Source: a bacterium
Lineage (GTDB): Bacteria; UBP18; UBA7526
DNA: 12,186 nt
Assembly: GCA_030619985.1 (NCBI GenBank)
Contig: JAUXAI010000037.1
Location: 1 to 12,186 of the forward strand
Direction: 5' to 3'
Shown: one piece after another, positions 56-10,422 of the stretch
Numbering within the stretch: the first letter of the stretch is position 1
Layout of the letters: every line of letters begins with the position of its first letter
Made by a program: the position numbers and the translations under genes
Notes under the pieces: model-generated
What the model was told of the DNA's origin: nothing
The model's database searches: none
What the model saw: only the letters and a program-made list of their open reading frames with translations

Positions 56-1081
56 ATGGTAAAGACAAAGATTATTGCCACCTTAGGTCCTTCCAGCAGT
101 AGTTATACGGTAATCCGCAAGATGGTTATGGCCGGATTGGATGTGGTGCGCCTCAATTTTTCACACGGTACCCATGAGAAACATCTGCGCTGTCTGCAGC
201 TGGTAAGAAAGGTTAACAAAAGATACCGGCGGCACATCCGCATCATGCAGGACCTGGAAGGATATCGTATCAGGATCGGCCGTTTTAGAGGTAAAAGGCA
301 TAAAATTCTAAAGAAAAGAACCATCGTCTGGCTAACCAGGGACCCCGATGAAGGGGATGCGCGTATGATTCCTTTTGATTACGAAGGAGATTTAAAGAGA
401 ATCAAGCCCGGGCAGCCCATATATATCGATGATGGTAACATAATTCTGAAGGTAAAGCATTCAGCAAAAAAGGCCATAAAAACAGAGGTGGTAGAGGGCG
501 GTATATTAAAAGAGCGTAAGGGCATCAATATGCCCGGGGTGCGCCTCCCCTTTTCCGGCCTGACACCCAAAGACAGAAGGGACATAGAATTTGGGATAAA
601 ACAGAGAGTTGATTACCTCGCCCAGTCATTCGTGAGCCGAAAAAAGGATGTTGATACCATCCGGGATCTTATTAAACCAGAAGTCCCCCGCTGTCGGATT
701 GTGGCCAAAATAGAAAGTAGAGAAGCCATAAAAAATATAGATGAGATCATCGCTGCTTCAGACGGTATAATGATCGCCAGAGGAGATATGGGCATTGCGG
801 TACCTATTTACCAGATACCCATAATCCAAAAACTTATTATCAGAAAATGTAACCAGAAGAAAAAGTTTGTGATTACCGCCACCCAGATGCTGGAGCACAT
901 GACCGAGCATTCCCGTCCCACGCGCGCTGAGGTCACTGATGTCGCCAATGCCATCCTGGACGGGACCGATTTCGTGATGCTTTCCGCAGAAACCGCCGCC
1001 GGAAATTATCCTGTGGAGTCTGTGAGGATGATGAACGAAATTATCAAATTTACCGAAAGCTATGACCAGTTGACCAGTTAG
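56..1081 (+). CDS. pyk: Pyruvate kinase lacking the C-terminal domain
   Basis: Pyruvate kinase transfers phosphate from phosphoenolpyruvate to ADP in the cytosol, the last step of glycolysis. Start ATG 56 is preferred over TTG 20: it follows AAGGAG (41-46) and gives the family N-terminus MVKTKIIATLGPSS. Visible landmarks are RLNFSHG (32-38), the DLEG segment (66-69), VAKIES with catalytic Lys218 and metal-ligand Glu220, ARGDMG (241-246, Asp244), ITATQMLE (273-280, Thr276) and LSAETAAG (309-316). The protein stops at 341 residues; most family members have about 470. The TIM barrel and B domain are present but the C-terminal regulatory domain is absent. What follows the stop is repeat DNA and a new gene, so this is not an obvious frameshift. 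The usual GPKIRTG reads GYRIRIG (69-75). Arginine codons are more often CGN than in the downstream genes, so a separate history is possible. Confidence 0.9.
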   Translation: MVKTKIIATLGPSSSSYTVIRKMVMAGLDVVRLNFSHGTHEKHLRCLQLVRKVNKRYRRHIRIMQDLEGYRIRIGRFRGKRHKILKKRTIVWLTRDPDEGDARMIPFDYEGDLKRIKPGQPIYIDDGNIILKVKHSAKKAIKTEVVEGGILKERKGINMPGVRLPFSGLTPKDRRDIEFGIKQRVDYLAQSFVSRKKDVDTIRDLIKPEVPRCRIVAKIESREAIKNIDEIIAASDGIMIARGDMGIAVPIYQIPIIQKLIIRKCNQKKKFVITATQMLEHMTEHSRPTRAEVTDVANAILDGTDFVMLSAETAAGNYPVESVRMMNEIIKFTESYDQLTS

Positions 1082-1119
1082 CCAGTTTGCCGGTTAGCCA
1101 GTTAACCGGTTAACCAGTT
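1064..1119 (+). repeat. Seven 8-bp tandem units spanning the pyk stop
   Basis: Seven consecutive 8-bp units fit the consensus NRCCRGTT (for example GACCAGTT, AGCCAGTT, AACCGGTT). The pyk stop codon (1079-1081) lies across units two and three, so the last residues (DQLTS) are repeat-encoded. Some units are near-palindromic (AACCGGTT), so the single strand could fold in several registers. Related ACCAGT/ACCGGT words recur at 9011-9065 and 10290-10357. Confidence 0.85.
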
Positions 1120-1139
1120 TTGTCAAAGGAGGTGAGACC

Positions 1140-1316
1140 ATGACACCGGTAGAAGCTTTAGAAGTAGCTTTAGAGAAGGAAAAGGCATCAATAGCGTTAT
1201 ATCAGGATTTAATTGCAAAACACTCCGTGATTAAAAATTTACTTTATTCTTTGCTCATTGAGGAACAAAAACACAAAAAACTGATTGAGGAGAAAATTGT
1301 TGAATTAACTCGATAA
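1140..1316 (+). CDS. Small two-helix ferritin/rubrerythrin-like protein
   Basis: A 58-residue ORF starts at ATG 1140, 7 nt after GGAGG (1128-1132) in a near-perfect Shine-Dalgarno AAAGGAGGTGA (1125-1135). The strong ribosome binding site argues that it is translated. The product reads as two amphipathic helices. Helix one has EKASIALY (14-21), matching the E-x6-Y spacing of a rubrerythrin first helix. Helix two has EEQKH (41-45), supplying the ExxH metal-ligand motif. A full ferritin-like domain has two such helix pairs and about 130 residues, so this is half a four-helix bundle. It could form a di-iron site by dimerising, as encapsulated ferritin-like proteins do. Iron binding is inferred from motif spacing only; a simple coiled-coil protein is the alternative. 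It lies 58 bp after pyk. Confidence 0.6.
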   Translation: MTPVEALEVALEKEKASIALYQDLIAKHSVIKNLLYSLLIEEQKHKKLIEEKIVELTR

Positions 1317-1392
1317 TGCCCACCCCAAACTCTCCTTGTCAACCTTAGCGCACCTTTATTTCCCTATTTTTTCTTTTATTTTTCATTATTTA

Positions 1393-1418
1393 TTTTCAAA
1401 TTCTTAAGAATTTGGAAA
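1393..1418. promoter_or_regulatory. Palindrome upstream of the rpmH promoter
   Basis: CAAATTCTTAAGAATTTG (1397-1414) is a perfect 18-bp palindrome. With TTTT before it and GAAA after it, it extends to 26 bp with one mismatch. It sits inside a looser inverted repeat formed by 1355-1370 and 1421-1438 (TTTATTTCCCTA against TAAGGGAATTTAA). It ends 42 bp upstream of the -35 box at 1456. It could be an operator or activator site for the rpmH operon, or a stem at the end of the preceding transcript, though no T-tract directly follows. It does not match a DnaA box. Confidence 0.45.
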
Positions 1419-1455
1419 CAACAAATAAGGGAATTTAATGGTTAGAGAGAAAGAT

Positions 1456-1484
1456 TTGACAGTCTATTTAAAGTGAGGTATAAT
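1456..1484 (+). promoter_or_regulatory. Consensus sigma70 promoter of the rpmH operon
   Basis: A perfect -35 TTGACA (1456-1461) is separated by exactly 17 bp from a perfect -10 TATAAT (1479-1484). Transcription would start near 1491, leaving about 20 nt before rpmH with GGAGGAG at 1501-1507. A full-consensus promoter is uncommon and fits strong expression of ribosomal protein L34. Confidence 0.88.
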
Positions 1485-1510
1485 ATATTTTACTTGATTT
1501 GGAGGAGAAC

Positions 1511-1648
1511 ATGGTAAAGAGGACTTATCAGCCGAAAAGAAGGAAGAGAAAGAGGACTCATGGCTTCCGAAAGAGGATGAGGAGTAAGTCGGGAAGGAGG
1601 GTCTTGAAGAGGAGAAGAAGGAAGAAAAGAAAACGCTTAACGGTTTAA
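1511..1648 (+). CDS. rpmH: Large ribosomal subunit protein bL34
   Basis: The 45-residue product is a very basic component of the 50S ribosomal subunit. It carries the family signature [21 protein letters not shown] (residues 3-23), then a [18 protein letters not shown] tail with the usual ending. Length is typical (44-46). The start ATG is preceded by GGAGGAG (1501-1507). It is the first gene after the consensus promoter and precedes rnpA, the ancient rpmH-rnpA pair that lies near many bacterial origins. No dnaA gene appears on its upstream side in this window. Confidence 0.97.
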
Positions 1649-1740
1649 GAGATTTCTAAAAAAGTCCGAAATCTCTGATTTCACAGATAAAGTACAGATT
1701 ACACAGATTTGAGGGCACTGAAACTTTTTTCAGAGGCCTC
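1648..1740 (+). repeat. Two hairpins and CACAGAT repeats between rpmH and rnpA
   Basis: A perfect 9-bp stem, AGAGATTTC (1648-1656) with GAAATCTCT (1668-1676), begins in the rpmH stop codon and has an 11-nt loop. It is followed by degenerate CACAGAT/TACAGATT/ACACAGATT units (about 1681-1710). A second hairpin pairs CTGAAA (1718-1723) with TTTCAG (1728-1733), flanked by GAGG/CCTC (1711-1714 with 1737-1740). Neither stem has a downstream T-tract, so they are not clear terminators. They could slow exonucleases or partly separate rpmH from rnpA expression. Confidence 0.6.
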
Positions 1741-1752
1741 TTTAAAGGAGCT

Positions 1753-2133
1753 ATGAGTAAATATAGCCTGAAGAAAAGCGAGCATCTCAGAAAGAATTCC
1801 GATTTTAAGAAAGTATATTCTAAAGGAAGGTCCTGCGCCGATCACTTCATCGTCCTCTTCATCCTCCCCAATGATTTGGGAAAAAACAGGATTGGCCTCT
1901 CAGTGAGCGCCAAGGTTGGAAAAGCGACAAAGAGAAATAGGGTCAAGCGGCTATTCCGAGAAGTCTATCGGCTGAATAAGGATAAGCTCATTCAAGGAAT
2001 AGATCTGATCTTCTTGGCAAGGAAGGATGCTACCAAGTTAGATTTTCATAAAATGGAGAGGTCCATATTGAGGCTATATAAGAGAGCAAGGATATTGAAG
2101 GATCAAGGATTAACAGGGACTAGAAAGGATTAG
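1753..2133 (+). CDS. rnpA: Ribonuclease P protein component
   Basis: RnpA is the protein cofactor of RNase P; it binds the catalytic RNA and the 5' leader of precursor tRNAs. The 126-residue product has the family N-terminus LRKNSDFKKVYSKGRS (12-27), the central strand RIGLSVSAKVGKA (46-58) and the RNR box KRNRVKRLFREVYR (60-73). Length is normal. ATG 1753 is the only start giving the family N-terminus. Its Shine-Dalgarno AAAGGAG (1744-1750) leaves just 2 nt to the ATG, shorter than usual, so initiation may be weak. The last residues (about GLTGTRKD) are encoded by a 10-bp tandem repeat and look like an added tail. yidD starts 18 bp after the stop. Confidence 0.96.
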   Translation: MSKYSLKKSEHLRKNSDFKKVYSKGRSCADHFIVLFILPNDLGKNRIGLSVSAKVGKATKRNRVKRLFREVYRLNKDKLIQGIDLIFLARKDATKLDFHKMERSILRLYKRARILKDQGLTGTRKD

Positions 2134-2150
2134 AAGGGAGTAGCAGGGGA
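2111..2150 (+). repeat. Four 10-bp tandem units across the rnpA stop
   Basis: Four 10-bp units stand in register: TAACAGGGAC, TAGAAAGGAT, TAGAAGGGAG, TAGCAGGGGA. The rnpA stop codon is the TAG that opens the third unit (2131-2133). The third unit also supplies the likely yidD ribosome binding site (AGGGAG, 2135-2140, 11 nt from its ATG). Confidence 0.75.
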
Positions 2151-2151
2151 A

Positions 2152-2388
2152 ATGGTTAAGGTATTAGTTGGGTTGATTCGGTTTTATCAAAGGTTTATTT
2201 CACCCTGGAGAGTCCCCTGCTGTCGCTTCTATCCCACTTGTTCAGAGTATGCCATTGAGGCCATAAGAGAATGTGGTCTTATCTTTGGGGCCTTTTTGGC
2301 CTTAAGAAGGCTTCTCAAGTGTCATCCCTTTCATCCCGGGGGCTATGATCCTGTAATCGCAGATGACCGCAGATCAAAACGCAGATGA
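2152..2388 (+). CDS. yidD: Membrane protein insertion efficiency factor YidD
   Basis: YidD is a small protein, usually encoded between rnpA and yidC, that associates with the inner face of the membrane and assists Sec/YidC-dependent insertion. The 78-residue product shows the full signature: FYQRFISP (11-18), [15 protein letters not shown] (24-38) and [15 protein letters not shown] (54-68), including Cys24, Cys30 and Cys57. Start ATG 2152 gives the expected hydrophobic, basic N-terminus. The C-terminal tail ADDRRSKRR is encoded by CGCAGATGAC tandem units and looks like a repeat-derived extension past the conserved GGYDPV end. Confidence 0.96.
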
Positions 2389-2399
2389 CCGCAGATGAT
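2358..2399 (+). repeat. CGCAGATGAC tandem units across the yidD stop
   Basis: Units begin at 2358 (CGCAGATGAC), 2368 (CGCAGATCAAAA), 2380 (CGCAGATGAC) and 2390 (CGCAGATGAT). The yidD stop TGA (2386-2388) lies inside the third unit. The word resembles the CACAGAT and CACGGAT units found at 1681, 4146, 8294 and 8420. Confidence 0.8.
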
Positions 2400-2400
2400 T

Positions 2401-2510
2401 TAGTTCGGAATTTAGAGTTCGGAGAAAAAGGAAACATAACTATTAGATCAGCGGAAATCAGCGTCTAAGCCTCAAGGTAAACGAAGTGCGTTGAGTATCA
2501 GCGTTTAAAG
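2401..2510 (+). repeat. ATCAGCG repeats and AACGAAGTG hairpin before yidC
   Basis: The yidD-yidC spacer holds two TTCGGA-containing units (about 2401-2423) and three ATCAGCG words (2447-2453, 2457-2463, 2497-2503). Between them CTCAA (2471-2475) pairs with TTGAG (2491-2495) around a loop containing AACGAAGTG (2480-2488). That 9-mer recurs at 8389 and 8447, also in hairpin loops. No promoter or terminator was recognised here. Confidence 0.6.
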
Positions 2511-2522
2511 AAAGGTTAAGAT

Positions 2523-4145
2523 ATGGAGAAAAGAACTTTACTGGCTATTGTTTTATGTATCCTGGTCATCATCTTCTATAATATCTTCCTTGCTCCCAAG
2601 GCTCCCAAGATGGTTCCCCCCCAGCCCCAGGCACCAGTACCAGAGAAGATTGTTGAGGTGCCGAAAGAGGAAGTCCCTGCCCTTCCAGAGATCCCAATAA
2701 TTGAATCCCGGGATATCATAGTTGAGACCGATCTAGTGAAGGCCGTCTTTACTACCCAGGGAGCGAGGCTCAAGAGTTACTGGCTAAAGAATTACGACCA
2801 TGAACTAATCTCTACTACAGAGGAAAATAAGTATCCCCTATCCTTAGAGATCCCGGGCCAGAAAGAATTGGTCTCAGAGAACTGGAGACCAGATAGAGAG
2901 AGACTAATCTTAAGTGAGAATAATCCCACTGGGGAAGTAAAATTCACCTATCTCAATCCTCAGGGTTTGAAGATTATAAGGACTCTCAGATTCTATAACG
3001 ACAGTTACAAGATAGATGCCAAGGTCAGTCTCCAGAATACTACTTCTCAGGATATCTATATCCCGGAGTATAGGCTCTCCTGGGGTCCGGGAATTGGAGA
3101 AGAGGAAAAGAAAGCGGGCAGGAGGTATGGCCAGTTTGCCGGTCCGGTTTCCTTCATCAATGGGAAGTTAGAAAAGGACACCCTAACAAGAAGTTTCATT
3201 AAGGGCCCCACAGTGAAAGTAGGGGTTCCCACCATCCACCAGGGAAAGGTAGGGTGGGTGGCCTTGAAGAGTAAGTATTTTATGGCTGCTTTTGTTCCTC
3301 TTGAGGCCGCTCAGGCCACGGTTATTGAGAAGGACGAGAGGAATAAGGCCACTGTGGGAATAAAGATGGCTCCCTTTTCCCTCAAGGGGAAAGGGACCAT
3401 CAGTCATGAGTTTACCATCTATCCCGGTCCAAAGGATTATGAGTTAGTAAAGGGATTGGGTCTGGGGCTGGAGCAGGCAGTGGACCTTGCCTGGTGGAGC
3501 TGGGTTACTCCTATATCTCTTCTACTGCTCAAACTCTTCAAATGGTTCTATAAGATAATACCGAACTATGGGGTGGCCATCATCCTGATTACCCTCCTCA
3601 CTAAAGTAATCCTTCTTCCCTTTACCCAGAGGAGTTTTACCCATATGAGGGCCATGCAGGCCATCCAGCCCAAGATAAATGCTCTGAGGGAAAAACATAA
3701 GGATAATCCCCAGGAACTCAATAGACAGATGATGAGGCTCTATCGGGAGCATAAAGTGAATCCTCTGGGTGGATGTTTCCCCATGCTTCTGCAGATGCCC
3801 ATCTTCTTTGCCCTATTCGGCCTCCTCTATACCTCTATAGAACTGAGGGGGGCAGGCTTTATCTGGTGGATTAAGGATCTCTCCCTTCCAGATACTGTTG
3901 GCTATTTGGCTGGCTTTCCCATCAATATCCTTCCCATTCTGATGGGTCTCACTACTGTCATCCAGCAGAAGATGACCACTGTTGATCCCAGGCAGGCCAA
4001 GATGATGCTCTTCATGCCCGTCTTCATGACATTTATTTTCTACAATTTCCCGTCCGGCTTAGTCCTTTACTGGTCGGTAACAAACGTTCTCACTATCGGC
4101 CAGCAGTACATCATCGCCAAGAGAATGCCCGCCCCAGCCAAGTAA
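2523..4145 (+). CDS. yidC: Membrane protein insertase YidC, diderm type
   Basis: YidC inserts and folds inner-membrane proteins, alone or with SecYEG. The 540-residue product has an N-terminal membrane segment (about 6-24), a Pro-rich linker (26-60), a large periplasmic P1 domain (about 60-315) and the conserved insertase core (about 325-535). Core landmarks are TLLTKVILLPFTQRS (357-371) with Lys361 at the usual basic groove position, the cytoplasmic hairpin IQPKINALREKHKDNPQELNR (381-401), VNPLGGCFPMLLQMPIFFAL (412-431) and the last helices LPILMGLT, MPVFMTFIFYNFPSGLVLYW and VTNVLTIGQQYII. The P1 domain points to a diderm cell. ATG 2523 follows AAAGG (2511-2515) by 7 nt. Repeat DNA begins at the stop codon. 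Confidence 0.97.
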   Translation: MEKRTLLAIVLCILVIIFYNIFLAPKAPKMVPPQPQAPVPEKIVEVPKEEVPALPEIPIIESRDIIVETDLVKAVFTTQGARLKSYWLKNYDHELISTTEENKYPLSLEIPGQKELVSENWRPDRERLILSENNPTGEVKFTYLNPQGLKIIRTLRFYNDSYKIDAKVSLQNTTSQDIYIPEYRLSWGPGIGEEEKKAGRRYGQFAGPVSFINGKLEKDTLTRSFIKGPTVKVGVPTIHQGKVGWVALKSKYFMAAFVPLEAAQATVIEKDERNKATVGIKMAPFSLKGKGTISHEFTIYPGPKDYELVKGLGLGLEQAVDLAWWSWVTPISLLLLKLFKWFYKIIPNYGVAIILITLLTKVILLPFTQRSFTHMRAMQAIQPKINALREKHKDNPQELNRQMMRLYREHKVNPLGGCFPMLLQMPIFFALFGLLYTSIELRGAGFIWWIKDLSLPDTVGYLAGFPINILPILMGLTTVIQQKMTTVDPRQAKMMLFMPVFMTFIFYNFPSGLVLYWSVTNVLTIGQQYIIAKRMPAPAK

Positions 4146-4440
4146 ATACACGGATAGACACGGATAGACACGGATTAGTTTAAATTTAAAAATCAAATAT
4201 CAAAAATCAAAATTACACATTATAAAAAATCAAATGTTAAATATCAAAAATAAAAATGACATATTAAATATCAAAATCAATAAATTCTAAACCTTAGAAA
4301 CTTTTACATTTTGCATTGTCATTTTAATTTTTGAACTTTCATTTTTCATTTTACTATGTCATTTTACACTTTAATTTTTGCATTTTGCATTTAGTCATCT
4401 GTGGCCATCTGTAAAAAATCTGTGATTATCTGTGTATTAA
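4143..4440. repeat. Long imperfect inverted repeat filling the yidC-jag spacer
   Basis: The gene-free stretch 4146-4451 is mostly one imperfect inverted repeat with its outer end on the yidC stop. The left outer arm is three 10-bp CACGGATAGA-type units (4147-4175). The right outer arm is CTGTGATTATCTGTGTATT and related words (4395-4438), the near complement of the left. The inner arms are A-rich TCAAAAAT/TCAAATAT units on the left (about 4190-4285) against TTTTGCATT/TCATTTTAATTTTTG on the right (about 4305-4390). Transcribed, it would fold into a long bulged hairpin. No protein-coding potential was seen. Confidence 0.75.
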
Positions 4441-4451
4441 AGGGGGAGAGA

Positions 4452-4922
4452 ATGGAAACAGAGAGAGCAAAAGAGATTTTAGAGGAATTGTTAAAGAGGA
4501 TGGGAATCGATGCTGGAGTGAGCGCCAAAGAGATTGAGGATTATATCTCTTTGGATATTACTACCCCGGATAGTGCTTTAGTCATTGGAAGGCAAGGGAA
4601 GACCTTGGGAGCTCTGCAGTACCTTGTGAATCTGATTATTAACAAGGAGAAAGAGGAGAGAATAAAGGTCATCCTGGATACCGAAGGCTATCGGGAGAGG
4701 AGAAAGGCGAGATTAATGGAGCTTGCCAAGAAATTAGCTCAGAGAGCAAAGGAGGGAAATACCGAGGTCTTTCTCGAGCCCATGAACCCCTATGAGAGAA
4801 GAATCATCCATACCACCTTGGCAGAAGACCCGGATGTTGAGACTGAGAGTGTGGGGGAAGGGATCGAAAGACAGGTGGTCATTATCCCTAAGGGAATAAA
4901 AGGCAAGGAGCAGGAAGTTTAA
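4452..4922 (+). CDS. jag: Jag/KhpB RNA-binding protein (KH and R3H domains)
   Basis: Jag (KhpB) is a cytosolic RNA-binding protein with a KH and an R3H domain; in Gram-positive bacteria it works with KhpA and influences elongation and division. The 156-residue product has a KH domain (about 30-105) with the GxxG loop GRQGKT (46-51), then an R3H domain (about 105-146) with MNPYERRIIHTTLAEDP (111-127) and GIERQVVIIP (137-146). ATG 4452 follows GGGGGAGAG (4442-4450). An in-frame GTG at 4401 would add 17 residues from repeat DNA and is rejected. The Jag_N domain of longer homologues is absent; the protein begins almost at the KH domain. mnmE starts 13 bp after its stop, so the two are probably co-transcribed. 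Confidence 0.93.
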   Translation: METERAKEILEELLKRMGIDAGVSAKEIEDYISLDITTPDSALVIGRQGKTLGALQYLVNLIINKEKEERIKVILDTEGYRERRKARLMELAKKLAQRAKEGNTEVFLEPMNPYERRIIHTTLAEDPDVETESVGEGIERQVVIIPKGIKGKEQEV

Positions 4923-4935
4923 CCTCGGAGATTTT

Positions 4936-6306
4936 ATGTTAGTGGATACCATCGCTGCCATATCCACACCCATCGGTGAGGGAGGCCTGGGAATCGTCAG
5001 GATAAGCGGTCCCCGGGCCTTTTCCATTGCCGATAAGATATTCTCCAAGAAAGTTTCCCGACTCCCCTCCCATACTGTCCATCACGGCTATATCATTGAT
5101 CCCAGAAGCAAGGAAAGGATAGACGAGGTTATGCTCTCCATCTTCAAAAAGCCCAAGTCCTTCACCGCAGAGAATATGATCGAGATCACTGGCCATGGAG
5201 GGATCGTTCCTTTGAAAAGAATATTAGAAGTAATCTTATTCACTGGGGCCAGATTGGCCGAGCCAGGGGAGTTCACTAAGAGGGCATTTCTGAATGAGCG
5301 AATAGATCTGGCCCAGGCAGAAGCGGTAGTGGACATCATCAGGGCCAAGACAGAGATGGGACTAAAGGTTGCCTTACATCAATTGGACGGGGAGCTTTCC
5401 TCTAGAGTAGAGGGTCTTCGCCGGGAGCTCATCCATCTCTCTGCTTACCTCGAAGCAGCCATCGACTTTCCTGAGGAAGATATCGAGAGGCTTGAGTCTC
5501 CTCAGATGCTTCTTAGAGCAAGGAAGGTCTTAAGAGAAATAAAGGAACTTCTGAAAGGTGCCGAGGGAGGTAAGGTCCTGAGGGAAGGAATAAAGACGGT
5601 CATTATTGGCAGGCCGAATGTGGGGAAGTCGAGCCTTCTTAACGCCTTATTAAAGGAAAAGAGGGCCATTGTGACCCCGATTCCCGGAACCACCCGAGAT
5701 ATCATTGAGGAGATCATCAATGTAAAGGGGATTCCTCTGAAGATCATCGATACTGCAGGACTCACTACTGCAGCGGGGATCGTTGAAAAGGAAAGTATAG
5801 CCAGGACGAGGAGATCTCTGAAAGCAGCGGATCTTGTCCTTCTCGTCATGGATGCTGCCACCCGTTTGTCGAAAGAGGACCACAGAATAATGGAGGATGT
5901 CAGAGATAAGAAGGTCATTGTGGTCATAAATAAGACCGACCTTCCCGAGGTCATTGAGGTTAATGAGATAAGGAAGATTTTGCATGATAAGAGGATAATA
6001 AAGGTCTCGGCGACGAAGAAGACCGGGTTAGGAAGATTAGAAAAATTCGTTATCGACCTTATTTTCGAGGGAGGAGTTGCTCCTTCAGATAGGACACTAG
6101 TGACCAATATCCGACATAAGGATGCTTTAGAAAGGACGAAGAAAAGCCTGAAGAATATGGTAGAAAGCATAAAGAAAAATATGTCAGCAGAGTTTATCTC
6201 TCTTGATCTCAAGGCAGCCTTAGATAGCCTGGGAGAGATTACGGGAAAGACGGTGACCGAAGATATCCTGGATGAGATCTTCTCTCAGTTTTGCATCGGC
6301 AAGTAA
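4936..6306 (+). CDS. mnmE: tRNA modification GTPase MnmE
   Basis: MnmE, with MnmG, modifies uridine 34 of certain tRNAs to (carboxymethyl)aminomethyl derivatives, using GTP hydrolysis and a folate cofactor. The 456-residue product has the N-terminal folate-binding domain (about 1-118), a helical domain containing the inserted G domain (about 219-380) and the C-terminal CIGK motif (453-456). GTPase motifs are GRPNVGKS (225-232), GTTRD (251-255), DTAG (272-275) and NKTD (332-335). Glu284 aligns with E. coli Glu282, the catalytic glutamate. After DTAG the usual L-R-E/D reads L-T-T (276-278), a small deviation in switch II. ATG 4936 lies 5 nt after CGGAG (4926-4930) and gives the family start DTIAAISTPIGEGGLGIVRISG. 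Confidence 0.97.
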   Translation: MLVDTIAAISTPIGEGGLGIVRISGPRAFSIADKIFSKKVSRLPSHTVHHGYIIDPRSKERIDEVMLSIFKKPKSFTAENMIEITGHGGIVPLKRILEVILFTGARLAEPGEFTKRAFLNERIDLAQAEAVVDIIRAKTEMGLKVALHQLDGELSSRVEGLRRELIHLSAYLEAAIDFPEEDIERLESPQMLLRARKVLREIKELLKGAEGGKVLREGIKTVIIGRPNVGKSSLLNALLKEKRAIVTPIPGTTRDIIEEIINVKGIPLKIIDTAGLTTAAGIVEKESIARTRRSLKAADLVLLVMDAATRLSKEDHRIMEDVRDKKVIVVINKTDLPEVIEVNEIRKILHDKRIIKVSATKKTGLGRLEKFVIDLIFEGGVAPSDRTLVTNIRHKDALERTKKSLKNMVESIKKNMSAEFISLDLKAALDSLGEITGKTVTEDILDEIFSQFCIGK

Positions 6307-6314
6307 TTAAAAGT

Positions 6315-6403
6315 AAGGGTTACAGGGGAAACAAGGGCTACAGGGGTAACAGGGGTTTAAAACCCTTATCACCCTTATTACCCTTGCCACCCTTGTTACC
6401 CTT
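6315..6403. repeat. AAGGGTAAC tandem units as an inverted repeat between mnmE and mnmG
   Basis: The left half contains AAGGGTTACAGGGG, AAACAAGGGCTACAGGGG and TAACAGGGGTTT. The right half contains their near complements ACCCTTATC, ACCCTTATT, ACCCTTGCC and ACCCTTGTT. The halves meet at GGGTTTAAAACCC near 6359, giving an imperfect hairpin of about 89 bp from 9-bp units. It ends at the mnmG ribosome binding site (GAGGA, 6404-6408). No T-tract suggests termination. Confidence 0.85.
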
Positions 6404-6414
6404 GAGGATAATTA

Positions 6415-8292
6415 ATGCGTAAGCTCGAAAAGGAGTATGATATTATTGTCATCGGTGGGGGGCATGCTGGTTGTGAGGCCTCTTTGGCTTCAGCAAGGAT
6501 GGGAGCGAGAGCTTTATTAATAACTTCGAACCTGGATAATATCGCTCATATGTCCTGTAACCCGGCCATCGGTGGATTGGGTAAAAGCCATCTGGTTAGA
6601 GAGATAGACGCTCTTGGTGGTGAGATGGCCAAGAATATCGATAAAACCGGGATTCAATTCCGGATGCTCAATACTAAGAAGGGGCCAGCGGTTCAGGCCC
6701 CACGTGTCCAGGCAGATAGGAGAGATTACAGGATAAGCATGAGAAGGGTTCTGGAAAAAGAGAAAAACCTCGATATAAAACAGGACTTAGTAAAAGAAAT
6801 CATAGTTAAAGGTAAGAAAGCGACCGGGATTAAGACTCAGACAGGTATAGAATATAAGGGAAAAGCAATCATCTTAGCAACAGGGACCTTCTTAAGGGGC
6901 CTAATTCTCATGGGCAAAGTATCCTTTCCTGCGGGAAGGATGGGAGAGTTCCCTGCTGATAGACTCTCTGATAGCCTGAAGAAAATAGGCCTCAAGATAG
7001 AGAGACTCAATACCTGCACCCCTCCCAGGATCGAAGGAAAAACAGTCAATTTTTCCAAATTAATTAAGCAACCTGGAGACACTCCCCCACCGCCCCTTTC
7101 ATTCTCAACTAAAGAGATCAAAACCAAGCAAATCCCCTGCTATCTTGCCTTCACAAATGATGCCACCCACAAGGTAATTAAGAAGAATTTAAGAGATTCC
7201 CCTCTTATCACTGGTGAAGCAAAGGGCCTTCCCCCAAGATACTGCCCCTCTATTGAGGAGAAGATCGCCAGATTCCCAGAGAAGAAGAGGCATCAGATAT
7301 TCATAGAGCCAGAGGGAAGGGATACCACTGAATACTATGTGAACGGCTTCTTTACCGGATTTTCTGAAGAAATCCAGCTTGAAGCACTGCGCACCATGAA
7401 GGGTTTGGAGAAGGTTAAGATTGCCAAGCCGGGATATGCCATAGAGTATGACTTCGTTTCCCCTACCCAGCTGAAACCCTCCCTTGAGACAAAGAGGATT
7501 GAGAACCTCTTCCTCGCTGGACAGATAAATGGGACCTCAGGATATGAAGAGGCTGCTAGTCAGGGCTTGATGGCAGGGATAAATGCAGTATTGAAGATTC
7601 AAGAAGAAGAACCCTTTATTCTCGATAGGTCCGAAGCCTATATCGGGGTCTTAATCGATGATTTAGTGACTAAGGGAACGAAGGAACCCTATCGCATGTT
7701 TACCTCCCGGGCAGAGTATAGGCTAATCCTGAGGTGCGACAATGCAGATCAGAGACTTATAAGGTATGGCCACAGGTTCGGTCTTATTTCCGACGAGGAT
7801 TATGAAAGATGTCAGAGAAAGTATACTCAAATAGAAGAAGAGATCAAAAGGTTGAAGAAGAGTCGCGCCCGAACGACTAAGAGAGTGAATAACCTCTTAA
7901 AGAAACTTGGAACGGATCCGATAAAGGAGGATACTCCCCTAGCGCAGATTCTTAAGAGACCAGAGGTGAGATACAGAGATTTAGTCAAGATTGATGATGA
8001 GGACGAAAGGAAAATATCTTCTGAGGTTGCCCAGGGAGTGGAAATCGCTCTAAAGTATGAGGGCTATATTAAGAGGGAGTTGGACCAGGTAGAAAGATTT
8101 AAGAGGCTTGAAAAGAAGAAAATTCCTTCGGACTTTGATTACTCTAGACTGGAGGGACTGAGGATTGAATCTAAGGAGAAACTAAGTAGCATAAGGCCGA
8201 TTTCTATCGGTCAGGCATCGAGGATCTCTGGAGTAAATCCCTCTGATATCTCCTTACTTTTAATCTATCTAAAGCGTCGGGAATTTGAATAG
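6415..8292 (+). CDS. mnmG: tRNA wobble-uridine modification enzyme MnmG (GidA)
   Basis: MnmG is the FAD-dependent partner of MnmE in forming (carboxymethyl)aminomethyl-uridine at tRNA position 34. The 625-residue product has the FAD-binding GGGHAG (14-19) and MSCNPAIGGLGKSHLVREIDALGGEM (46-71). It also has KTGIQFRMLNTKKGPAV (77-93), RYCPSIEEK (275-283), FIEPEGRDTTEYYVNGF (296-312), the second flavin segment NLFLAGQINGTSGYEEAASQG (364-384) and SRAEYRLILRCDNAD (431-445). Cys48 and Cys277 match the conserved cysteines. The usual KTGTPPR reads NTCTPPR (199-205), placing a Cys where Gly is common. ATG 6415 is 6 nt after GAGGA. Length is as expected. ACACGGAT repeats begin directly after the stop. 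Confidence 0.97.
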   Translation: MRKLEKEYDIIVIGGGHAGCEASLASARMGARALLITSNLDNIAHMSCNPAIGGLGKSHLVREIDALGGEMAKNIDKTGIQFRMLNTKKGPAVQAPRVQADRRDYRISMRRVLEKEKNLDIKQDLVKEIIVKGKKATGIKTQTGIEYKGKAIILATGTFLRGLILMGKVSFPAGRMGEFPADRLSDSLKKIGLKIERLNTCTPPRIEGKTVNFSKLIKQPGDTPPPPLSFSTKEIKTKQIPCYLAFTNDATHKVIKKNLRDSPLITGEAKGLPPRYCPSIEEKIARFPEKKRHQIFIEPEGRDTTEYYVNGFFTGFSEEIQLEALRTMKGLEKVKIAKPGYAIEYDFVSPTQLKPSLETKRIENLFLAGQINGTSGYEEAASQGLMAGINAVLKIQEEEPFILDRSEAYIGVLIDDLVTKGTKEPYRMFTSRAEYRLILRCDNADQRLIRYGHRFGLISDEDYERCQRKYTQIEEEIKRLKKSRARTTKRVNNLLKKLGTDPIKEDTPLAQILKRPEVRYRDLVKIDDEDERKISSEVAQGVEIALKYEGYIKRELDQVERFKRLEKKKIPSDFDYSRLEGLRIESKEKLSSIRPISIGQASRISGVNPSDISLLLIYLKRREFE

Positions 8293-8293
8293 T

Positions 8294-8353
8294 TACACGG
8301 ATGGGCGCGGATTAAAAGATACGGATTAGCACTGATGCTCATTGCTAATCCGT
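8294..8353. repeat. ACACGGAT units with an 11-bp perfect hairpin after mnmG
   Basis: Starting one base after the mnmG stop are 10-bp-like units (TTACACGGAT, GGGCGCGGAT, then GATACGGATT). The last one opens a perfect 11-bp stem, ACGGATTAGCA (8321-8331) with TGCTAATCCGT (8343-8353), around an 11-nt loop. There is no clear T-tract afterwards, so it is not called a terminator. The units resemble those at 4147-4175. Confidence 0.8.
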
Positions 8354-8380
8354 GTCAATGCTTAATTATTTATGCTCTCT

Positions 8381-8466
8381 AGGATGCCAACGAAGTGCAT
8401 CCTGTAATCAGTTTAGTCAATCTGTGCTAATCTGTGAAGATTGCCAAACGAAGTGAGGCTTATCTT
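8381..8466 (+). repeat. Two AACGAAGTG-loop hairpins and AATCTGTG repeats before DUF4416
   Basis: AGGATGC (8381-8387) pairs with GCATCCT (8397-8403) around CAACGAAGT. A second hairpin pairs AAGAT/ATCTT (8437-8441 with 8462-8466) and GCC/GGC (8443-8445 with 8457-8459) around AAACGAAGTGA. Between them are AATCTGTGCT and AATCTGTGAA units (about 8419-8438). The 9-mer AACGAAGTG occurs at 8389-8397 and 8447-8455, and also at 2480-2488. The second hairpin reaches close to the DUF4416 start and could affect its translation. Confidence 0.75.
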
Positions 8467-8488
8467 GCGAGAGGAGAGAGAAAGAAGA

Positions 8489-9022
8489 GTGAGCGAGCCA
8501 AGAGAGCATAAACCAGTAAAATTAGTAGTAGGGATGTTTACTAATAGGTTAGAACTCTTTCAAGAAGCCTTAAGAGTATTGGAGAAGAGGTTCGGGCCAG
8601 TAGATTATGAGAGTCCCCTACTCCCCTTTGATAAGACGGATTACTATGAGGAGGAGTTTGGAAAGGATCTGAAGAGGAAGTTTTACTCTTTTAAGAAGTT
8701 GATTAAAGCAGAGGATCTGCCAAAGATTAAGATATTTACTAATAGTCTAGAGAAGAAATTTGGTGAAAAGGGGAATCGTTTGATTAATTTGGATCCTGGG
8801 TATCTTGCTCCGGCTAAGTTAGTCTTGACCACCACAAAGGATTATCAGCATAGGATATACTATGGAAAGGGAATCTATGGAGAGGTAACCTTAAGATACA
8901 AAAGGGGAAGTTTCATTCCTTGGGAGTGGACCTATCCAGAGTATAGGACGAAGGAATATATCAAGATCTTCAACCATATCCGAAAAATCTATATGGAGCA
9001 ACTCAGGAACCGTGAACAGTGA
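8489..9022 (+). CDS. DUF4416 family protein of unknown function
   Basis: The 177-residue product matches the remembered pattern of the DUF4416 family, whose biochemical role I do not know. Family-like segments are KPVKLVVGMF near the start, RFGPVDYESPLLPFDKTDYYEEEFG, LKRKFYSFKKLI, NRLINLDPGYLAPAKLVLTTTKDYQHRIYYGKGIYGEVTL and PWEWTYPEYRTKEYIKIFNHIR. No signal peptide or membrane segment is visible, so a cytosolic protein is likely. GTG 8489 is chosen because it yields the family-like start MSEPREHKPVKL, with AGGAG at 8472-8476 (12 nt away). TTG 8465 (after GAGG, 8455-8458) and TTG 8441 are in-frame alternatives; the latter would start in repeat DNA. The last residues (NREQ) come from a 14-bp tandem repeat. 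It sits between mnmG and rsmG, usually neighbours. Confidence 0.82.
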   Translation: MSEPREHKPVKLVVGMFTNRLELFQEALRVLEKRFGPVDYESPLLPFDKTDYYEEEFGKDLKRKFYSFKKLIKAEDLPKIKIFTNSLEKKFGEKGNRLINLDPGYLAPAKLVLTTTKDYQHRIYYGKGIYGEVTLRYKRGSFIPWEWTYPEYRTKEYIKIFNHIRKIYMEQLRNREQ

Positions 9023-9065
9023 TCGGTGAACAGTGATCGGTGACCGGTGATCGGTGACCGGTAAT
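9011..9065 (+). repeat. Four 14-bp tandem units across the DUF4416 stop
   Basis: Units are CGTGAACAGTGAT (13 bp, 9011-9023), CGGTGAACAGTGAT (9024-9037), CGGTGACCGGTGAT (9038-9051) and CGGTGACCGGTAAT (9052-9065). The DUF4416 stop TGA (9020-9022) lies in the first unit. A looser array of ATTGGT/ATTTGG words follows at about 9118-9190. Together they fill the first half of the gene-free region 9023-9461. Confidence 0.85.
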
Positions 9066-9204
9066 CAGGAGAAAGTGCGAGAATGAGAAAGTGAGCAGGA
9101 AATAGGGTGAACTGATTACCAACTGTTTGGTTCATTGGTTATTTGGTAATTGGTGATTGTTTGTGATTTGGGGTTTGTAATTTGGGATTTATGCCGAAGG
9201 CGTT

Positions 9205-9220
9205 TATTCCACGTGGAATA
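9205..9220. promoter_or_regulatory. parS: parS-like centromere site 1
   Basis: TATTCCACGTGGAATA is a perfect 16-bp palindrome, extended to 18 bp by T9204 and A9221. The classical ParB site is TGTTTCACGTGAAACA, with TGTTCCACGTGGAACA as a known variant. This copy keeps the CACGTG core and differs at the second base of each half (A for G). An identical copy lies upstream of parA at 10366-10381. Position beside parAB and exact duplication support ParB binding. Confidence 0.85.
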
Positions 9221-9276: not shown

Positions 9277-9340
9277 GGGGTAAACTGCGGTCAAGACGTA
9301 ATAAAAAGATAATGTCCCTTTCCGTTATATAGTCCAATAA

Positions 9341-9429
9341 AGCGGGTCCTGCCTCGGCATTTTCTCTTCGTGGGCCCCTCCGCCCGGTGTAGATCCTCCC
9401 ACTCACAGAGATCTGCCGAGTCACCCGCT
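9341..9429. ncRNA. Candidate structured RNA element upstream of rsmG
   Basis: Four nested helices stack over 89 bp: AGCGGGT/ACCCGCT (9341-9347 with 9423-9429), CGGCA/TGCCG (9355-9359 with 9414-9418), CTCT/AGAG (9364-9367 with 9407-9410) and GTGGG/CCCAC (9370-9374 with 9398-9402). That is 21 Watson-Crick pairs separated by small internal loops. On the + strand it would be the leader of rsmG, ending 32 nt before its ATG. On the - strand the internal loops are purine-rich, more typical of functional RNA. It matches no riboswitch or RNA family I recognise. A degraded mobile or palindromic element is the alternative. Confidence 0.4.
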
Positions 9430-9461
9430 CATTACAGTTTTTGAAACGAGAGAGAGTTCAG

Positions 9462-10265: not shown

Positions 10266-10289
10266 TGATTGGTGATCAGTGGTCTCAAA

Positions 10290-10357
10290 AGTAACCAGTA
10301 ACCAGCGAACAGTTAACAGTAAAAAAACTGGTTACTGTAAACTGGTAACTGTAAACT
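10290..10357. repeat. 31-bp imperfect inverted repeat after rsmG
   Basis: The left arm (10290-10320) consists of AGTAACC/CAGTAACCAG/CAGTTAACAGT words. The right arm (10327-10357) is its complement at 22 of 31 positions, with an A6 spacer at 10321-10326. Preceding it, TGATTGGTGATCAGTGG begins at the rsmG stop. The words resemble those at 1064-1119. parS site 2 starts 8 bp further on. Confidence 0.8.
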
Positions 10358-10365
10358 CTTTAAGA

Positions 10366-10381
10366 TATTCCACGTGGAATA
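10366..10381. promoter_or_regulatory. parS: parS-like centromere site 2, upstream of parA
   Basis: A second exact copy of TATTCCACGTGGAATA, a perfect 16-bp palindrome with the CACGTG core of parS. It lies about 100 bp upstream of the parA start, between the rsmG repeats and the terminator at 10391. parS sites often lie near parAB and the origin. ParB bound here could also influence transcription of its own operon. Confidence 0.88.
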
Positions 10382-10390
10382 ATGTGATTC

Positions 10391-10422
10391 CCCTACTGTA
10401 GTTAAACGGTAGGGATTTTTTT
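10391..10422 (+). terminator. Rho-independent terminator between rsmG and parA
   Basis: CCCTACTG (10391-10398) pairs with CGGTAGGG (10407-10414), with one T-G wobble and an 8-nt loop. It is followed by A and seven T (10416-10422). This is the clearest intrinsic terminator in the window. It would end transcripts from rsmG and implies that parA has its own promoter. Confidence 0.85.

Follow-up and report, generated by a model that had tools for sequence, protein, structure and literature searches.

Short palindromic repeats between co-directional genes, and their reach into gene ends, in a small bacterial phylum

The locus

The window considered here, a stretch of 12,186 nucleotides (G000:C79:1-12186), belongs to a draft genome of 1.25 Mb in 91 contigs (G000; 84% complete) from a small bacterial phylum of which six genomes were examined, and whose genomes are themselves small, with lineage drafts of 1.1-1.4 Mb. 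A single strand carries pyk, an open reading frame of 58 aa, rpmH, rnpA, yidD, yidC, jag/khpB, mnmE, mnmG, DUF4416, rsmG, parA and parB. Co-directionality is almost complete in the wider samples, neighbouring genes switching strand in 8 of 414 pairs in G000 and in 12 of 361 pairs in its relative G005 (window; L004-L043, L164-L183). The pyruvate kinase (56-1081) comprises the barrel domain only, at 341 aa; its C-terminal domain is without a match, and a similar end point is found in the related locus L045.

An earlier note on this DNA had placed the stop codons of pyk, rnpA, yidD and DUF4416 inside short tandem repeats, and arrays called by TRF do cover all four, all features described here being on the forward strand. 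At pyk, an 8/16-nt array of CCAGTTA/CCGGTTAG words (1065-1119), which forms a self-complementary hairpin (fold z -4.25), spans the stop at 1079-1081, a site at which relatives carry other sequence and other C-termini. The rnpA stop (2131-2133) lies within a 10/20-nt array of GGGACTAGAA (2105-2148), and that of yidD (2386-2388) within a 10-nt array of CGCAGATGAC (2358-2398), similar words to which occur at many loci; both of these arrays are weak, with 75-84% matches and TRF scores of 40-57. At DUF4416, a 7/14-nt array of GTGATCG/GTGACCG (9007-9066) covers the stop at 9020-9022.

The same note had repeat or hairpin DNA beginning at, or within a base or two of, the stops of yidC, mnmG, rpmH and rsmG, and this too is broadly what is found. 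A 9-bp hairpin, GAGATTTC...GAAATCTC (1646-1676), starts at the rpmH stop itself; it is missing from the related locus L044, where the gap between rpmH and rnpA measures 7 nt. Three nucleotides past the yidC stop (4143-4145) lies a 10-nt array of ACACGGATAG in 2.8 copies (TRF; 4148-4175), followed by AT-rich repeat stretches and then by words of the opposite arm (ATCTGTG) ahead of the jag/khpB Shine-Dalgarno sequence (TRF; 4182-4438). The gap between mnmG and DUF4416 holds a composite palindrome of CACGGAT words (8293-8457; fold z -6.70) that begins no more than 4 nt from the mnmG stop and has cross-matches elsewhere in the genome. Its inner part (8348-8412) occurs alone elsewhere and is missing in other copies of the outer hairpin, as befits a nested insertion. 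At rsmG, short 7-nt words adjoin the stop within the rsmG-parA hairpin of GTAACCA / CTGTAAACTGGTAA words (10266-10358; fold z -2.72), the TRF array itself starting only from 10290. Between mnmE and mnmG, a further hairpin of 9-nt words (TRF; 6314-6404; fold z -4.72) is built of regular 6-7 bp stems with 3x3 internal loops between them; a search for a known RNA family returned only a sub-threshold, chance match to mir-365 on this hairpin.

Two other sequences in the region deserve mention in their own right. A perfect 16-bp palindrome, TATTCCACGTGGAATA, flanks rsmG at 9205-9220 and 10366-10381, near parA-parB; G000, G001, G002 and G005 each have exactly two copies of it, and G007 has one. It is kept while the surrounding arrays are replaced, contributes codons to the DUF4416 C-terminus of L044, and looks like a candidate parS. 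A dispersed element of ~97 bp, AGCGGGTCCTGCCTCGGCATTTTCTCTTCG...GAGTCACCCGCT, lies at 9338-9434 and is also found in L044, at 5670-5766 in the mnmE-mnmG gap (96% identical) and at ~8665.

Abundance and dispersal of the repeats

Arrays with a period of 5-30 nt were counted in 446 kb of contig stretches from G000, about one third of the genome, and in partial samples of three related drafts (G001, G002 and G005). Outside of the window, genes were called with a simple home-made codon-usage caller that overlooks short genes, rpmH and yidD among them. The repeats occur genome-wide: in the G000 sample arrays take up 9.4% of the intergenic DNA and 0.75% of the coding DNA by base count, and 30 of 422 stops but 7 of 434 starts lie inside them. 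In the relatives 16/166, 20/166 and 22/367 stops are in arrays, G001 and G002 coverage being inflated by contigs partly selected for holding a CACGGAT match and G005 contigs having been picked among long ones with matches. G000 contigs were taken mostly by numerical order, and the G000 result agrees with that of the selected-contig relatives. Pooling the four genomes, arrays hold 88 of 1121 stops and 19 of 1143 starts (p = 1e-12), which supports the earlier note in that repeats are commoner at stops than either at starts or within genes. The array-poor exception is G007, from another genus of the same family, in which arrays hold 2 of 108 stops and 1.6% of intergenic bases. With 4 of 12 stops in arrays, against 7% for the genome, the window is a favourable sample (binomial p = 0.008).

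The weak arrays at rnpA and yidD might invite the suspicion that chance low-complexity sequence, or loose thresholds in the repeat finder, generates the pattern. Genome-wide, shuffling refutes this: dinucleotide-shuffled G000 intergenic DNA yields coverage of 0.07-0.36% and 3-5 stops in arrays in place of 9.4% and 30, and outgroup loci from Poribacteria and Bacillota given the same treatment, mostly one conserved region each, have arrays at 4 of 657 stops. We therefore regard a chance origin as scarcely credible.

Units of 7 and 8 nt are common, as are 10-mers, and all are degenerate, with variability within arrays somewhat concentrated in ~3 nt per unit; in CACGGATNNN arrays the 3-nt spacer varies and the word is kept. 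The vocabulary includes CACGGAT, CGCAGAT, AATCTGTG and GTAACCAG. Copies are widely dispersed: of 262 intergenic regions sampled in G000, 218 match another one of the sample, at up to 95% identity over 100-150 bp and in both orientations, near full-length element copies among them. The mnmG-DUF4416 region alone is matched, fully or in part, at 34 places in its genome. On contigs C43 and C67 its outer arms (query 1-68 and 119-171) directly adjoin, the middle part being absent, and that middle part occurs alone elsewhere, so the elements are nested. Poribacteria loci were dropped as a control for cross-matching, being orthologous loci.

Some of this vocabulary extends beyond the phylum: all six phylum genomes contain CACGGATNNNCACGGAT, G007 a single time, and several Poribacteria contain it too; in the reversed control it never occurs. 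Words shared with Poribacteria (L184-L192) include CACGGATTAACACGGAT, which often follows TTGTCTGAAT. Among plasmids, the rsmG-parA hairpin has a match in one from Nostoc (73% identity over 91% of the hairpin), and the mnmG hairpin has none. Viral contigs scanned for a triple CACGGAT array returned 7 stretches.

Secondary structure and transcript ends

The main rival to an account based on spreading elements holds that what keeps hairpins within operons is a role in protecting or defining transcript 3' ends, their sequence being free to vary so long as a hairpin follows the stop. Several observations speak for it: intergenic RNA folds beyond its shuffles, with a median z of ~-2 in G000 and G005 compared with -0.6 and -1.1 in array-free outgroup regions; 319 of 436 arrays have a stronger complementary partner in their own region than in others (p = 1e-39); hairpins persist though their words are replaced; and in Nostoc a transcript-stabilising role has been suggested for intergenic STRR hairpins (PMC2670836). 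Folding is however symmetric between strands, which palindromic elements explain equally well, and it is of equal strength in intergenic regions with and without arrays. As array-free regions fold just as strongly, intergenic structure itself may be under selection. Most hairpins in the window moreover lack a T-run, terminator-like sites number 18 against 13.2 +- 4.2 in shuffled sequence, and at some sites, such as rpmH-rnpA in L044, a sister species has no hairpin at all. Protection or definition of transcript ends is in our view a possible but rather unlikely main cause.

Stop codons as boundaries

The placement of 436 arrays between co-directional genes was analysed across the four genomes. 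Left ends of arrays peak at -3 to +6 nt relative to the end of the stop, at 8-10 per nt compared with ~3 at 15-30 nt, and right ends peak 15-25 nt ahead of the next start, sparing the Shine-Dalgarno sequence. Stops are overlapped 79 times, and free placement with a tolerated intrusion of 12-18 nt gives 63-96; arrays fill the whole intergenic gap, and overlap at this level is expected if intrusion of ~12-18 nt is tolerated. A first null model with a 45-nt tolerance had predicted 46 overlaps against 28 seen, and the idea that arrays are attracted to stops was rejected, the wide null over-predicting and the overlap fitting the narrower tolerance. Stops are not special targets, and the overlap count requires no attraction.

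Intrusion into the gene averages 13.5 nt (maximum 36), compared with 16.8 nt expected from reading in all phases (paired p = 0.005). The array-borne stop is therefore close to the first one met and slightly earlier than expected, and the shortfall means that selection or targeting trims the overlap. Arrays do not act as all-frame stop codons or a built-in terminator: sense-strand stops are enriched only in arrays that cover a stop (9.9 vs 3.1 per 100 nt), with 6.0 vs 5.6 in downstream arrays. Divergent or convergent gene pairs, considered as a test of association with 3' ends, are too few for it, with 8 strand switches in the sample.

Elements might still insert specifically at stop codons, or a stop might seed an array by local duplication, as the sharp peak of array starts at the stop, and several elements that begin directly past TAA or TAG, would suggest. 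The mirror-image pile-up ahead of the next Shine-Dalgarno sequence argues against this, as does an overlap count that fits untargeted placement, and in gaps so short the sole harmless site is the interval from stop to Shine-Dalgarno sequence. The stop as a seed or register for arrays was rejected, the units standing in register with it no more often than chance allows (7 seen, 5.5 expected, p = 0.31). We judge stop-specific insertion, or seeding by the stop, very unlikely. Of the process at gene 3' ends that the earlier note had envisaged, the enrichment of repeats at stops stands; targeting is not supported, given the mirror boundary, the lack of register and the absence of stop enrichment in downstream arrays.

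Replacement between species and its effect on C-termini

The orthologous loci L044 and L045 share the gene order of the window, with MnmG 87-89% identical, and yet differ in their repeat words. Downstream of rnpA, GGGACTAGAA-type units in the window give way to CTTGAAGC-type units in L045, and the mnmE-mnmG gap is filled by GGGTAACAG words in the window, GTTACTA words in L045 and an unrelated repeat in L044. Across species with ~92% protein identity, intergenic identity is mostly near background; even among the nearest genomes compared whole intergenic regions are replaced, and in several orthologous pairs the entire stretch from stop to Shine-Dalgarno sequence has been swapped with the latter retained, or a filled gap faces an empty one.

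These replacements reach into the proteins. Pyk ends in ESYDQLTS in the window and ERYQRLLD in L045, and in L044 runs ~20 residues further. Where an array lies at the stop, only 2 of 22 orthologue pairs end alike, compared with 59 of 101 other pairs, and amongst reciprocal best hits identity over the last six columns is 0.39 where an array lies over a stop and 0.68 otherwise (p = 1e-6). At columns -40 to -20 identity is equal (0.89 and 0.88), array pairs not differing from other pairs there; only the last few residues diverge. Neither outcome that would have spoken against the earlier note was obtained: C-termini in orthologue pairs mostly differ where an array lies at the stop, and repeats are not equally frequent at gene 5' ends or inside genes. 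The repeats have a measurable effect on proteins, those of core genes included, whose final residues they rewrite, and caution is required in that repeat-encoded C-terminal tails are not to be read as functional.

Interpretation

The best account, and in our view a probable one, is that small palindromic elements disperse and expand, held in check by purifying selection that protects the Shine-Dalgarno sequence and whatever stretch of the coding sequence is essential. Short dispersed elements populate the whole genome; their tandem arrays are degenerate and made of words of 7, 8 and 10 nt, two complementary arrays often pairing as a hairpin and sometimes nesting. Within the gaps that separate co-directional genes such elements would invade and expand, one displacing another, and would be retained only where harmless, from the dispensable last codons of the upstream gene to just ahead of the next Shine-Dalgarno sequence. 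A gene overrun in this way terminates at a stop within the array, with its last residues encoded by the repeat. Copies would arise via dispersal and slippage-like expansion, and purifying selection would set the array boundaries. Replication slippage, as raised in the earlier note, fails on its own to explain the same words and near-identical hairpins at many loci, and survives here as the inferred mode of expansion.

Several observations stand against the dispersal account. The pile-up exactly at the stop is sharper than a model of uniform tolerance predicts, intrusion falls slightly short of the all-phase expectation, and array-free intergenic regions fold as strongly as those with arrays. 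Moreover, no mobilising enzyme was found among the four families searched in incomplete drafts: Y1 transposase (PF01797) is absent from G000, G001 and G002, RVT_1 and DDE_Tnp_1 are absent from the genomes searched, and rve has one match, in G002; a REP transposase, a reverse transcriptase and a DDE transposase were accordingly rejected as movers in these drafts. No clear target-site duplications emerged from empty-site pairs. The same words spread through genomes and recur in Poribacteria without an evident transposase among the four families. A bolder and improbable reading is that these are transposase-free mobile hairpins, moved by virtue of their structure, whose 7-10-nt vocabulary is shared with other phyla and which have undergone a burst in this small phylum, turning over almost every co-directional gap and rewriting C-termini by a possibly undescribed DNA mechanism.

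Comparison with known systems

Dispersed intergenic palindromes, some in inverted pairs, liken the elements to REP/REPIN sequences. REP dispersal relies on a Y1-type transposase, and protection or definition of transcript 3' ends has been proposed for REP sequences; the difference here is that Y1 (IS200-like/RAYT) was not found in three incomplete genomes. As dispersed short elements with terminal inverted repeats they also resemble MITEs, with no parent transposon among DDE_Tnp_1, rve (the G002 match) and RVT_1. Most of the array hairpins are not intrinsic terminators of the GC-rich hairpin and T-run kind, 10391-10414 being the sole clear case in the window and counts being near those of shuffles.

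In enterobacteria, the small mobile sequences RU-1, RU-2 and RU-3 lie in some cases at gene 3' ends, where the original stop is lost and the protein gains, past its conserved domain, C-terminal residues encoded by the repeat (Delihas 2007, PMC2759123); unlike the elements here they have fixed lengths of 103-168 bp and are not tandem words of 7-10 nt. The STRR of filamentous cyanobacteria (PMC2670836) are ~7-nt tandem intergenic repeats capable of forming hairpins, and both traits are shared; our units of 7, 8 and 10 nt, mostly intergenic, fall within the 5-11 nt of STRR and long simple repeats, and lineage, unit lengths and frequent stop overlap set them apart. Intergenic TAACTGA heptamer arrays have been described in Beggiatoaceae, cyanobacteria and Bacteroidetes: in the BOGUAY genome 13 array sets run over the stop of the gene upstream, stops carried in all frames by the forward repeats limit the overlap to 18 nt, and near relatives can be without repeats at the same site (MacGregor 2015, PMC4679880). 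In essence, that account explains the stop overlap seen here. TAACTGA repeats, however, employ one dominant word just upstream of starts that mostly have no recognisable Shine-Dalgarno sequence, whereas here dozens of other words of 7, 8 and 10 nt are paired in hairpins, lie nearer the stop and end 15-25 nt before starts with the Shine-Dalgarno sequence spared. What is distinct is how many words there are, that they pair in hairpins and leave the Shine-Dalgarno sequence free, and how large a share of stops they affect, and extreme turnover of intergenic repeats is hereby documented in a lineage of small genomes: a dense, fast-changing variant of known repeats rather than a new gene-end mechanism.
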